DNA from: Desulfovibrio sp. UCD-KL4C
GTDB taxonomy: Bacteria; Desulfobacterota; Desulfovibrionia; Desulfovibrionales; Desulfovibrionaceae
Length of the DNA stretch: 64,000 bases
Reading direction: 5' to 3'
Assembly: GCF_006210265.1 (NCBI RefSeq)
Contig: NZ_VCNC01000001.1
Span: forward strand, 878,843-942,842
Below the pieces are notes generated by a model. That model was not told where the DNA came from, ran no database searches, and saw nothing but the letters and a program-made list of their open reading frames with translations. Numbering within the stretch: the first letter of the stretch is position 1; every line of letters starts with the position of its first letter. A program made the translations under genes and the position numbers. Shown here piece after piece: positions 7,480 to 11,424 of the stretch.

Positions 7480-8991
7480 TTAATCAATTCTGCTGGTGCG
7501 TCCAAAAAGCTCTGTCATTTCTCCCAGACGCTCACGTATTAGTTGTGTGAGCTGTCCTGGAACAAGTTTCCAGCCCCAGTTGCCGTCTGCTTCACCAGGG
7601 ATGTTCATGCGTGCTTTTCCGTCAAGATTAAGTAAATCCTGAACCTGAAAAATACACAGGCAGGCTACACTGGACATCAAAAGCCTGATCAGCTCCCAAG
7701 AAATTTTAGATTCGTCTATCCAGTCATGTCCTAGATACGACAACATGTTTTTGCGGCTTACTCCATCCGCATCATTATTGAACCATCCACGGTTGGTGTT
7801 ATTGTCATGCGTACCGGTGTATACGACTGAATTTCGCGTATGATTGTGAAGAGCATCACCGCATATACCGATGTCTTCTCCGAAAGAAAATTGAAGAATA
7901 CTCATGCCAGGAAATTGAAAGCGGTCTCTAAGGTACGCAACATCCTGTGTAATATGACCTAAATCTTCAGCGATAATACGTAGGCAACCCGTTCCGCAGG
8001 TAACCATTTCAAAAAGTTTATGCCCTGGAGCCTGAACCCAGTATCCTTCAACAGCGGATTTTGCTTCGGCTGGAACTTCCCAGTATGCTGAAAACCCTCT
8101 AAAATGATCAAGTCTGGCCCAGTTATATAATCCTAAATTATGTTTAAGCCTGCTGGCCCACCAGCCGAATCCATCCTGCTGAAGAACTTCCCAGTTATAA
8201 ACCGGATTTCCCCATAGTTGGCCTGTTTCACTGAAGTAATCAGGCGGAACTCCTGCCACGCAATATGGATTGCCGTTTTCATCGAGTTTGAAAATTCTTC
8301 TATTAGCCCAGACATCAGAGCTGTCGTGAGTGACGTAGATGGGTATGTCGCCGATGAGTTCGACACCGATTTCATCAAGGTGATCGCGAAGTTGTCCCCA
8401 TTGCCGGAAAAAAATCCATTGGCTAAATTTAACAAATAATATTTCCTGTTCCAGCAATTCTCCCCAATAGCGCAGGCTTTCTTCTGTACGATCTCTTATG
8501 TCCTCAGGCCAGTTCGTCCATTTTTCTCCGTTTAAATGCAGTTTAAGAGCAGTAAACAGCGCAAAATCATTAATCCAGTGCATGTTGTCGAATAAAAACT
8601 GGGTAAAGACATGGTCATCAAGTAAATTATTGGCAACGCGCGAGAAGGCTAAACGGAGAAGGGTTTCTTTTGCACGGGTCGACGCATTAAAATCAACTTT
8701 ATCTGAATCTGGAATAGCAAAATTATTTATTTCTTCATTATCAAGCAATCCGTATTGGACCATAAGTTCTGGACTTATCAGCAGCGGATTGGCGGCAAAT
8801 GCTGAAAATCCTGAATAAGGTGAGTTGCAAAGTTCACTCGCTGTAGGAGTTATGGGCAGAACCTGCCAAAACCTCTGTCCTGCTTCAGCCAGAAAGTCTG
8901 CAAATTCATAAGCTTCCGGGCCGATATCTCCGACTCCGAATCTTGACGGTAATGATGTGAAATGTAGAAGTATTCCGCTGGAACGTTTCAT
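7480..8991 (-). CDS. malQ: 4-alpha-glucanotransferase (amylomaltase) MalQ
   Basis: MalQ transfers maltooligosyl units between alpha-1,4-glucans. This 503-residue GH77 protein starts with SGILLHFTSLPSRFGVGDIG and contains the intact catalytic regions: RLDHFRGF (nucleophile Asp), IAEDLG (acid/base Glu) and TGTHDNNT (transition-state Asp). It also has YSGFSAFAANPLLI and GDIPIYVTHDSSDVW. The length is normal. AAGGAG precedes the ATG by 7 bases. It lies 100 bases downstream of the TreZ-like gene on the same strand, suggesting one glycogen or maltodextrin unit. Confidence 0.97.
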   Translation of the reverse strand: MKRSSGILLHFTSLPSRFGVGDIGPEAYEFADFLAEAGQRFWQVLPITPTASELCNSPYSGFSAFAANPLLISPELMVQYGLLDNEEINNFAIPDSDKVDFNASTRAKETLLRLAFSRVANNLLDDHVFTQFLFDNMHWINDFALFTALKLHLNGEKWTNWPEDIRDRTEESLRYWGELLEQEILFVKFSQWIFFRQWGQLRDHLDEIGVELIGDIPIYVTHDSSDVWANRRIFKLDENGNPYCVAGVPPDYFSETGQLWGNPVYNWEVLQQDGFGWWASRLKHNLGLYNWARLDHFRGFSAYWEVPAEAKSAVEGYWVQAPGHKLFEMVTCGTGCLRIIAEDLGHITQDVAYLRDRFQFPGMSILQFSFGEDIGICGDALHNHTRNSVVYTGTHDNNTNRGWFNNDADGVSRKNMLSYLGHDWIDESKISWELIRLLMSSVACLCIFQVQDLLNLDGKARMNIPGEADGNWGWKLVPGQLTQLIRERLGEMTELFGRTSRID

Positions 8992-9091
8992 TATAAGCTC
9001 CTTCGTTGATCAAAGATGATATACTATTATATCACAGAGCATGGTCCATATGTCCAGCTACTTTATTTTCAGCAAAGGAATGAAAATCAGA

Positions 9092-10942
9092 TTATATGTT
9101 CACAGGGGTATGAAAATATAATGCAAAAGATTGCGCAGCAAGTTCAAGTGGTTTGGCTGGTGACAAAATTTTATCAAGAGGTACACCGTGACCTTCGAAG
9201 GATCGAGCTCCGCTATAGAGTTTAAGTGTCCATGGTCCCGCCGGCAGATATGATTCAAGTTTTTCCGAGATTGCTATTTTATTAAAATTAAAAATGACTA
9301 CCGCGTACCTTTCATCAGAAGTTGAAGGATTTCTGAGCATCAGGATAACTCCTTGCTTAATCTCCTGAACCTGGCATCTGTTGTGACATGGCTCTTTTAG
9401 TGCAGGGTGCTCTTTTCTTAGAAGTAACATTTTCTTATAGAACTTAAGCATGGCTGTTCCCTGCTCAGAATCTTTTTTATTCCAATCCAACTGACTGGCG
9501 GTGAAGGATGATGCTTCATTGTGATCAAACTGTTTTTTAAGGCTAAATTCAAGATTCTGGTAGTGTTTACTCAATGTTTTGTTCAAGCTGGGAGCTGTGG
9601 AATGGTCTGAAAAATAATTGAATGGTGCTGTTTCTCCATACTCTTCTCCCATGAAAAGTAATGGCGTGTAGGGAGAGAGAAGTACGACTCCGGCACTTAG
9701 TTTAGCCGCTTCAAATCCTTCTTTTCTGATTGTTCTGCATTCTTGTCCTGTGCAGATAGTTTGTTCATGATTTTGGGAGTAAATAATTAAATTGCTGCCT
9801 GAGAATTGTTGATTATTGCAGCCATGGATTCTTTTTCTGTAATCAGAAAACTCTCCCCGATATGCGAATCCGTATTGCATCGCTGATACCATTTTTTCAG
9901 GATATTTATAGTCTCGGAAAATCCCGTTAATATCTCCTGTTATCCTGTAGTGAAGGGCGTGATGGAAATCTTCATCCCATAGAGCATCAAAGCCGTATCC
10001 ACCTTTGTCAATAGGTTGTATTGAGCGTGTGGAGTTGTGTTGATCATTAATTATTAAAACACATTTTCTGTTATTTGCTTTTTCAAAATTTCTGATCCGT
10101 GTAGACACTTCTTCCAGAAAATGCATTGGGCTTTGATCGTAAATTGTTTCTGCGTTATTTATGCGCAATCCATCGATGTGAAAGTCGCGCAGCCATGATA
10201 GAGCGCACTGGATATAGAATTCGCGAACTCCGAAACTATATTGCTCATCAAAATTAATAGCTTTCCCTTGTGTTGTTGTATGTATGTCACAAAAAAAATA
10301 ATCGAAAGCTGAGCTTAAGTTTTTTACAATGTTATGCTGACAAAATTCTACTACAAGAATTACAGCTATTCCGCGCTCATGGCTTGCTCTAACCAAAGCT
10401 TTTAATTCATCGGGCGTTCCGTAATTATTGTGAACAGCATACGGAAAAATAGTTTTATTTCCCCATCCGCGATGCCCAGCAAACTGTGCAACGGGCAGAA
10501 GCTCCAATGTGTTTATTCCAAGCTCAACCAGATGATCAAGTTTGGACATAAGGCCGCGTATTGTTCCTTCTTTAGTAAAAGTTCCGACATGAGCTTCGTA
10601 AATTATCATTTCGCTTATTGGCAGACCGGAAAAATTGTCTCCTTCCCAGTCAAATTTATGATGATCAAATACAGTTGAGTAGGAATTTATCCCCTCAGGC
10701 TGCCATAGAGATGCCGGGTCAGGAATTTTTTTTGATTCATCAAGTAGAAATGAATATGAGGTATTCGGAGTGATATTTTTTAAGGTTAATTCGTGAAAAC
10801 CATAGTCGGCTTGATCCATCTTAAATTTATGATCAGGGTCATTATTAAAATTAATTTCAACCTTTGGGATATGAGGTGCAAATAGTCTGAACATGCAATC
10901 ACCATTTTCATCAAACCGTGCTCCGAAGTGTTTTTTTGTCAT
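9092..10942 (-). CDS. TreZ-like GH13 protein with all catalytic residues replaced (probable pseudoenzyme)
   Basis: The 616 residues follow the architecture of malto-oligosyltrehalose trehalohydrolase (TreZ): an N-terminal CBM48-like beta domain (about 1-95), the YEAHVGTFT entry to the (beta/alpha)8 barrel, ELLPVAQFAGHRGWGN, LLFMGEEYGETAPFNYFSDH and a C-terminal beta domain. The active-site motifs are degenerate. Region I reads VVEFCQHN instead of DVVYNH. Region II reads DGLRINNAE, so the nucleophile Asp is Asn. Region III reads LIINDQHN where the acid/base Glu is expected. Region IV reads QNHEQ instead of QNHDQ. The frame is intact over the full length, so this is not a decayed gene. It sits upstream of malQ. 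Binding or regulation of glucan is a plausible role but inferred; trehalohydrolase activity is unlikely. Confidence 0.85.
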   Translation of the reverse strand: MTKKHFGARFDENGDCMFRLFAPHIPKVEINFNNDPDHKFKMDQADYGFHELTLKNITPNTSYSFLLDESKKIPDPASLWQPEGINSYSTVFDHHKFDWEGDNFSGLPISEMIIYEAHVGTFTKEGTIRGLMSKLDHLVELGINTLELLPVAQFAGHRGWGNKTIFPYAVHNNYGTPDELKALVRASHERGIAVILVVEFCQHNIVKNLSSAFDYFFCDIHTTTQGKAINFDEQYSFGVREFYIQCALSWLRDFHIDGLRINNAETIYDQSPMHFLEEVSTRIRNFEKANNRKCVLIINDQHNSTRSIQPIDKGGYGFDALWDEDFHHALHYRITGDINGIFRDYKYPEKMVSAMQYGFAYRGEFSDYRKRIHGCNNQQFSGSNLIIYSQNHEQTICTGQECRTIRKEGFEAAKLSAGVVLLSPYTPLLFMGEEYGETAPFNYFSDHSTAPSLNKTLSKHYQNLEFSLKKQFDHNEASSFTASQLDWNKKDSEQGTAMLKFYKKMLLLRKEHPALKEPCHNRCQVQEIKQGVILMLRNPSTSDERYAVVIFNFNKIAISEKLESYLPAGPWTLKLYSGARSFEGHGVPLDKILSPAKPLELAAQSFALYFHTPVNI

Positions 10943-11070
10943 TCTTGCTCTCTTAAATGCGGTTTTTATTTTAAATCTGAGTTATAGTATAATTAAAGCA
11001 AGTTTCGTTCGGCCCGTCTTTTGCATGTGAATGAGTACTTACAGTACGTAACACAATGAGGAGGCAGACT

Positions 11071-11424
11071 ATGAACAACACTATTAAGTCAGGCGTATCG
11101 AAAGAACATGTACAGATAGCTGAGGTTATGGCTGGTGATAAATCAGTTTTACATGAGCTTGATTTTCAAGATATCGCCATTTCAACCGTTGCCGTAAATG
11201 CTCTTAAAAGAGCAGCTACGGCCGTAATGCAAAAATTTTTTCCGGGTAGCCAACCTGAAAAACTAACAGATTCTCAGGCGGTAGCCTTTTTTATAGACAG
11301 AGTCTTTTGGGACCAAAATTCTAAGGGATTGATCCTTTGTGCTGACGCTGCCAGTCGTAGTTTTTGTATTCCTATTCCAAGTAATCACTGGCATATGAAA
11401 ACAGATCTTGGAACCATTCAGTAA
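11071..11424 (+). CDS. Unknown 117-aa soluble protein
   Basis: A strong GAGGAGG site at 11058-11064 fixes the ATG at 11071. The 117-residue product has no signal peptide or membrane segment. It contains QAVAFFIDRVFWDQNSKGLI, then LCADAASRSFCIPIPSNHW near the C-terminus. I do not recognise a family. It is monocistronic, framed by its own promoter region and a clear terminator, so it is probably an expressed gene of the lineage. It is divergent from the TreZ-like gene. Confidence 0.75.
   Translation: MNNTIKSGVSKEHVQIAEVMAGDKSVLHELDFQDIAISTVAVNALKRAATAVMQKFFPGSQPEKLTDSQAVAFFIDRVFWDQNSKGLILCADAASRSFCIPIPSNHWHMKTDLGTIQ

Follow-up and report, generated by a model that had tools for sequence, protein, structure and literature searches.

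The pTreZ locus and its neighbours

The stretch of DNA analysed here, referred to as the window, comprises 64,000 nucleotides of the genome of Desulfovibrio sp. UCD-KL4C and carries on its minus strand, at 9092..10942, a gene for a 616-residue TreZ-derived protein of the GH13 family that lacks the catalytic triad, a description that is based on the reading frame, profile matches, PDB sequence matches, alignment with TreZ and a predicted structure. The gene, designated pTreZ, is followed on the same strand by malQ (7480..8991, minus strand), which encodes a GH77 4-alpha-glucanotransferase with intact catalytic motifs (PF02446, 1.1e-165; TIGR00217, 350.7 bits vs 205.65). In all 17 genomes of the genus malQ lies directly downstream of pTreZ on the same strand, each genome has one GH77 match, and the MalQ motifs RLDHFRG, IAEDLG and GTHDN, which we take to hold the catalytic residues of this enzyme, are present in 17 of 17.

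The two genes are separated in the window by a spacer of 100 bp (8992..9091, minus strand), part of which is conserved in 16 genomes; the gap measured between match ends in 16 relatives is about 100–184 bp. The alignment of the 16 genomes reveals a conserved block that consists of CTGGACA followed, in many of them, by CTTGC-CTGCAATATGG; several members carry, ahead of the ribosome site of malQ, a right-hand copy resembling GCAGAGCAA. No intrinsic terminator was found in the spacer, and RNAalifold predicts no pairs there. The conserved block may be a promoter, malQ's own, or an operator; since malQ possibly has a promoter in the spacer, pTreZ and malQ are not necessarily co-expressed.

On the other side of pTreZ, and divergent from it, lies a gene for a 122-residue protein (11056..11424, plus strand) that has no Pfam or NCBIfam match. 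It is found beside pTreZ in the window and at 15 of 16 genus loci, the contig of the sixteenth ending at this point. The divergent gene was also seen at one intact-triad TreZ locus outside the genus (L029; genome G039).

A TreZ-like protein without its catalytic residues

The minus-strand frame from 9092 to 10942 is open and encodes 616 amino acids followed by a stop, in agreement with the original prediction, which had been made from the letters of the sequence. The profile of TreZ, maltooligosyltrehalose trehalohydrolase (TIGR02402), which we take to represent subfamily GH13_10, matches residues 17–555 of the product with an E-value of 3.5e-150 and a score of 500.9 bits, below the cut-off of 538.8, and the best PDB sequence matches are to Sulfolobus TreZ (1.6e-98). 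Four further genus copies score between 426.6 and 502.8 bits, placing all five members scored below the cut-off, which is passed by L029 (583.6) and L021 (699.8), both from outside the genus.

The altered residues were located by alignment with TreZ, and their coordinates, all on the minus strand, follow from the frame. Region I (residues 197–202; 10337..10354) reads VVEFCQ in place of DVVYNH, asparagines N262 (10157..10159) and N299 (10046..10048) stand where TreZ has the nucleophile Asp and the acid/base Glu, respectively, and E393 (9764..9766) occupies the place of the third catalytic Asp, so that a carboxylate is still present at this position. The conserved arginine of region II (R260) and the histidine of region IV (H392) are also still there. 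An error of reading or alignment can be ruled out as the source of the triad loss because the codons belong to an uninterrupted frame and the orthologues are consistent. The changes in regions I–IV and the TreZ-like GH13 nature of the protein, both asserted in the original prediction, are thus confirmed, the former by the alignment and the latter by the TIGR02402 match, the PDB sequence matches and the structural matches described below. A further assertion, that the rest of the fold motifs is kept, holds for 45 of the 82 positions that are invariant in TreZ, each of these 45 being conserved in 90% or more of the genus, and fails for the other 37, and the former active-site loops are of low confidence in the model.

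The AlphaFold2 model of pTreZ, computed with a 46-row alignment, adopts the TreZ fold with a pLDDT of 83.2 and a pTM of 0.89. The top nine Foldseek hits of this model comprise eight TreZ structures and one putative amylase (3m07), with target TM values of 0.88–0.92. Segments with a pLDDT below 50 are confined to residues 151–165, 203–210, 395–398 and 447–450, and the first three of these overlap or flank the former active-site motifs. The alignment behind the model contained TreZ from outside the genus and none of the genus copies, and this may partly account for the low confidence of the loops. With the TreZ family proper (TIGR02402; PDB 1eh9, 3vgb and 2bhu), pTreZ shares full-length homology and the same fold, and TreZ of two other genera of the family occupies the same position before malQ; pTreZ differs from TreZ in having no triad, in the replacement and variability of subsites −1 to −3, in its score below the TIGR02402 cut-off and in that no TreY was found in its genome.

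The available text of a mutagenesis and modelling study of Sulfolobus TreZ lists Y155, D156, H195, W218, R447 and E450 among the substrate contacts at subsites −1 to −3 and, from the substitutions R447A and E450A, describes milder effects for E450 (PMC3716775). In our alignment the first four of these contacts correspond to N162, K163, Q202 and Q225 of pTreZ. Across the genus the tyrosine is retained in 10 of 16 copies, the aspartate in six, the histidine in one and the tryptophan in four, compared with 101 of 101 TreZ sequences from outside the genus for each of the four residues. The loop that contains R447 and E450 is altered in pTreZ, with H460 at a position that is Glu in 98 of the 101 outside sequences, and is deleted in 11 of the 16 genus copies. 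In the window protein the residues of subsites −1 to −3 have been exchanged, and in the genus they vary; judging from the sequences, it is therefore unlikely that pTreZ binds maltodextrins in the ancestral way. The glucan binding that had been suggested for the protein is accordingly disfavoured as far as the old cleft is concerned, and could instead take place on a surface elsewhere.

Distribution and triad composition

Orthologues of pTreZ are encoded in all 17 genomes of the genus, with 38–88% identity to the window protein over the matched stretch and a mean pairwise identity of 56%, and 16 of the 17 copies are free of internal stops. In the copy of G008 (L047/L011) codon 19 is an in-frame TGA, the only stop in an otherwise open frame, and this could be a sequencing error, a recent nonsense change or a sign of a later start. 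Read separately from the aligned rows, this copy is also found to lack the nucleophile and the Glu.

The 119 loci collected yielded 119 proteins, of which two short ones (L011, the G008 copy, and L088) were dropped, leaving 16 genus rows and 101 others, made up of 79 named records and 22 sequences from the family and order. Named TreZ records were gathered using peptide patterns that lie outside the triad motifs, and triads of the outside matches were read for the best loci rather than for every match. At the nucleophile position the 16 aligned genus copies have Asn (6), Lys (6), Thr (2), Ser (1) or Ala (1), and none has Asp. The acid/base position is occupied by Gly (8), Asp (4), Asn (2), Ser (1) and, in the most divergent copy (L018, from G002), by the original Glu, whereas the third catalytic position has Asp in seven copies, Glu in six, Thr in two and Arg in one. 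In the outside TreZ-like rows Asp, Glu and Asp are present at the respective positions in 101 of 101 cases. No orthologue with a normal triad was found in the genus, among the 16 aligned copies and that of G008, and none of the positions 262, 263, 299 and 393 belongs to the acidic positions that 15 or more of the 16 copies conserve. Migration of the catalytic acids was rejected on these grounds, and the original prediction thereby stands against the two results that were looked for within the genus as evidence to the contrary.

In a scan of the family 39 of 288 genomes had a match at 1e-50, 22 of the 39 lying outside the genus. A profile of the clade, run against 348 genomes of the order, scored the 17 genus members at 852–1095 bits and the highest-ranking sequence outside them at 550 bits, and on account of this gap no further member of the clade is seen in these 348 genomes. 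Among 80 named TreZ loci none is close to the genus clade, the best having 38% identity. A search for GH13 proteins returned pTreZ and one other place per genus genome, with a third in G004. A second, intact TreZ was not found in the window's genome, where the other GH13 place is GlgB (978 bits vs 741).

Phylogeny and probable origin

Phylogenetic analysis was performed on 77 rows (16 from the genus, 22 from the family and order and 39 of the 79 named records) with a quick search and a midpoint root. All genus copies fall into a single clade (SH-aLRT 100), whose stem is long (0.94) and which is placed beside L027 and L029, loci that belong to two further genera of the family; the support for this placement is weak (83) and both neighbours are long-branched. 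In L027 and L029 the triads are intact and the genes immediately precede malQ on the same strand, and from these two loci it follows that the treZ-malQ order was probably inherited. The two genomes of the family in which an intact-triad TreZ adjoins malQ without TreY above the cut-off are G029 and G039 (L064, L065).

TreY (TIGR02401) scored above the cut-off in eight of 28 genomes examined, and in none of the 17 genus genomes nor in those of L027 and L029. The OtsA family is represented in both the L027 and L029 genomes and in 0 of 17 from the genus. GDE_C had no match in any of 19 genomes examined, all 17 of the genus included, while GH57 was detected in 19 of 19. As the 17 genus genomes have neither TreY above the cut-off nor an OtsA-family or GDE_C match, the genus seems to be devoid of the TreY and OtsA routes to trehalose and of a GDE-type debranching enzyme.

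Since the two genera placed nearest to the clade possess an intact-triad TreZ and no TreY above the cut-off, TreZ was probably orphaned by the loss of TreY and became non-catalytic afterwards, yet kept a role. The steps can be ordered tentatively from the sequences of living forms: a treZ-malQ pair with an intact triad would have existed in the absence of TreY, the nucleophile would have been lost on the genus stem, and the Glu, still found in the deepest branch of the genus (L018), would have disappeared from the other 15. The formation of a pseudoenzyme without gene duplication may have left its stages in living relatives, from TreZ accompanied by TreY elsewhere in the order and family, through intact TreZ without TreY in two genera, to the dead form in 17 of 17 genomes of the genus.

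Selection and conservation

Rates of nonsynonymous and synonymous substitution were estimated by the Nei-Gojobori method with our own script. Three pairs have a dS of less than 1 and are used here; at greater distances the pairs approach saturation, and for pTreZ three pairs yield no ratio, their dS being infinite. For pTreZ the dN/dS values of the three pairs are 0.091, 0.152 and 0.084, compared with 0.070, 0.043 and 0.036 for malQ, which is slower than pTreZ in all three, and 0.069, 0.034 and 0.047 for mnmE; the gene for the 122-residue protein has values of 0.192 and 0.126 in two of the pairs. By this measure pTreZ is under purifying selection and retained.

The distribution of constraint along the protein was compared with that of TreZ from outside the genus. 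Identity in four motif windows divided by identity elsewhere in the protein comes to 1.10 for the genus, as against 1.57 in 21 cyanobacterial and 1.73 in 15 family and order TreZ sequences; a hand-picked 'cleft' set gave 0.86, and because it included positions picked as lost, the motif-only value of 1.10 was relied upon. At 39 positions, spread along the chain with several in the C-terminal domain, at least 15 of the 16 genus copies share a residue that other TreZ seldom have. Corresponding counts in control sets are 0 for all 43 cyanobacteria, 0–3 (mean 0.22) for random cyanobacterial subsets of 16 rows, 1 for Nitrospirota (10 rows), 10 for a clade of the family (10 rows), 0 for a mixed set (15 rows) and 3 for Bacteroidota (6 rows), but reach 90 and 77 in two small sets of close sequences (4 and 3 rows, respectively). 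As the count depends on stem length and row number, the 39 positions indicate constraint and not, by themselves, a new function, and may partly reflect the long stem branch; L018 has only 21 of them. The motif ratio together with the fixed positions points to an active site that has lost most of its special constraint in a protein whose remainder is still held. The confidence with which the conclusions below are worded is based on the retention of the gene, the dN/dS values and the state of the triad rather than on the 39 positions.

Possible functions of pTreZ

Similarity alone would suggest that pTreZ is a trehalohydrolase and hence that a trehalose pathway exists, for which TreY was not found. 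To judge by its sequence, pTreZ is, with high confidence, a selected protein that is unable to work as an ordinary TreZ, and it is presumably without catalytic activity. The idea of a retained pseudoenzyme, advanced in the original prediction, is well supported by the genus-wide occurrence of the protein, its single clade, the signature of purifying selection and the loss of the nucleophile in 16 of 16 aligned copies; conservation among orthologues and dN/dS, which had been proposed as checks, showed triad positions altered genus-wide and ratios of 0.08–0.15. Pseudoenzymes and inactive GH13 proteins are already known, and no report of a dead TreZ was found among the matches listed for the open-licence PMC literature, going by their titles and the opening lines of their abstracts.

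The likeliest role, put forward as a leading possibility to which we attach slightly less than even weight, is that pTreZ now acts as a non-catalytic helper or regulator of MalQ. This proposal draws on the constant neighbourhood of MalQ, on the persistence of the protein after the loss of its substrate and of its catalytic residues, and on the precedent of plant ISA2. In its favour are the retention of pTreZ and its adjacency to malQ, each in 17 of 17 genomes, the single GH77 gene, the loss of the triad, the low dN/dS, the reduced extra conservation of the motif windows and the fact that neither TreY above the cut-off nor OtsA was found. Against it, gene order alone is weak evidence and may be inherited; moreover, malQ possibly has its own promoter, pTreZ evolves faster than malQ in three pairs, the G008 copy contains a TGA and L018 keeps the Glu. 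Partnership with MalQ had been suggested from the outset, and the suggestion gains from the adjacency, from the intact motifs of MalQ and from its being the sole GH77 enzyme found, but loses some of its force through the intact-triad TreZ loci that share the same order.

According to the available text of PMC12510319, ISA2 is non-catalytic, evolves at an elevated rate, is retained and is bound to ISA1. As far as that text goes, ISA2 and pTreZ have in common the GH13 barrel, clade-wide loss of catalytic residues, an elevated rate, selected retention and a place beside an active alpha-glucan enzyme, whereas ISA2, unlike pTreZ, is described there as a paralogue of its partner with an extra N-terminal domain (PMC12510319). 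On the side of pTreZ, it is the only TreZ found in its genome, its presumed partner comes from GH77, and the complex with MalQ would be predicted from adjacency in 17 of 17 genomes. By analogy with the inactive ISA2 as a partner of ISA1, pTreZ would associate with MalQ alone or with MalQ and glycogen jointly, and could tune the stability of MalQ, its choice of chain length or its access to glucan. If pTreZ does regulate MalQ, it would constitute a control point in bacterial glycogen metabolism. Non-catalytic GH13-like barrels also serve as partner subunits in rBAT and 4F2hc, the heavy chains of amino-acid transporters, in the way proposed here for pTreZ, from which they differ in being animal membrane proteins. 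A more specific version of the MalQ-helper proposal, advanced with rather less assurance, is that TreZ, once deprived of its supply from TreY, became an obligate non-catalytic subunit or an allosteric regulator of the sole MalQ found, an ISA2-like outcome that would involve a pathway neighbour from a different family and no duplication.

The best-surviving alternative, of modest probability, is that pTreZ binds an alpha-glucan or metabolite on its own, independently of MalQ, as a glycogen scaffold or sensor that uses surfaces or a remodelled pocket. The fold is kept in the model and the 39 genus-fixed positions run along the chain, several of them in the C-terminal domain; in addition, the window's genome encodes GlgB, and 15 of the 17 genomes have two nearly full-length glycogen phosphorylase genes. 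However, subsites −1 to −3 have lost their residues and vary in the genus, Pfam recognises no starch-binding domain in the window protein, and at every genus locus pTreZ was found next to malQ.

It is improbable, though still worth considering, that pTreZ is a moonlighting protein whose partner is neither MalQ nor a glucan, the 122-residue protein or a regulator being examples. The divergent placement of the 122-residue gene in the window, at 15 of 16 genus loci and at the intact-triad locus of G039 is compatible with such an association, but the lack of a Pfam or NCBIfam match for this protein weakens it.

Somewhat less probable again is an enzyme repurposed to work through different residues. 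The alpha-amylase BmaN1 is a caution that activity may persist with an unusual triad: in the available text of PMC5347038 this enzyme is reported to be active with an aberrant triad, in which Lys-Asp (K202-D203) appears in region II and the acid/base Glu is kept, and a small BmaN1-like group is mentioned in which all three catalytic positions are substituted. The irregular substitutions of the genus copies resemble those described for BmaN1 (PMC5347038), with Lys at the nucleophile position in 6 of 16 genus copies and Asp at the next position in 9 of 16. In contrast to BmaN1 as portrayed in that text (PMC5347038), which keeps the Glu and the following Asp, the window protein has N299 and N263; across the 16 copies the residue after the nucleophile position is Asn six times and Cys once, 15 copies no longer have the Glu, and a conserved substitute is lacking, positions 262, 263, 299 and 393 not being among the acidic positions shared by 15 or more of the copies.

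Least probable of all is a slowly decaying, functionless relic of treZ, which would be in keeping with the usual TreZ substrate not being made without TreY, with the faster evolution of pTreZ relative to malQ and with the one in-frame TGA, but which, like an already decayed pseudogene, is disfavoured by 16 of 17 stop-free copies across a genus with 56% mean pairwise identity and by dN/dS of 0.08–0.15 at unsaturated distances, well below 1.

Glycogen phosphorylase genes in the surroundings

Two nearly full-length, stop-free glycogen phosphorylase genes are present in 15 of the 17 genus genomes; in G009 both genes have a stop or a missing end, and G002 has one gene. One full-length glycogen phosphorylase gene (G000:C1:872470-874611) is situated about 13 kb from pTreZ in the window's genome, and in several other genus genomes the distance is 13–18 kb, on the strength of which the region may represent a loose cluster of genes for glycogen use.
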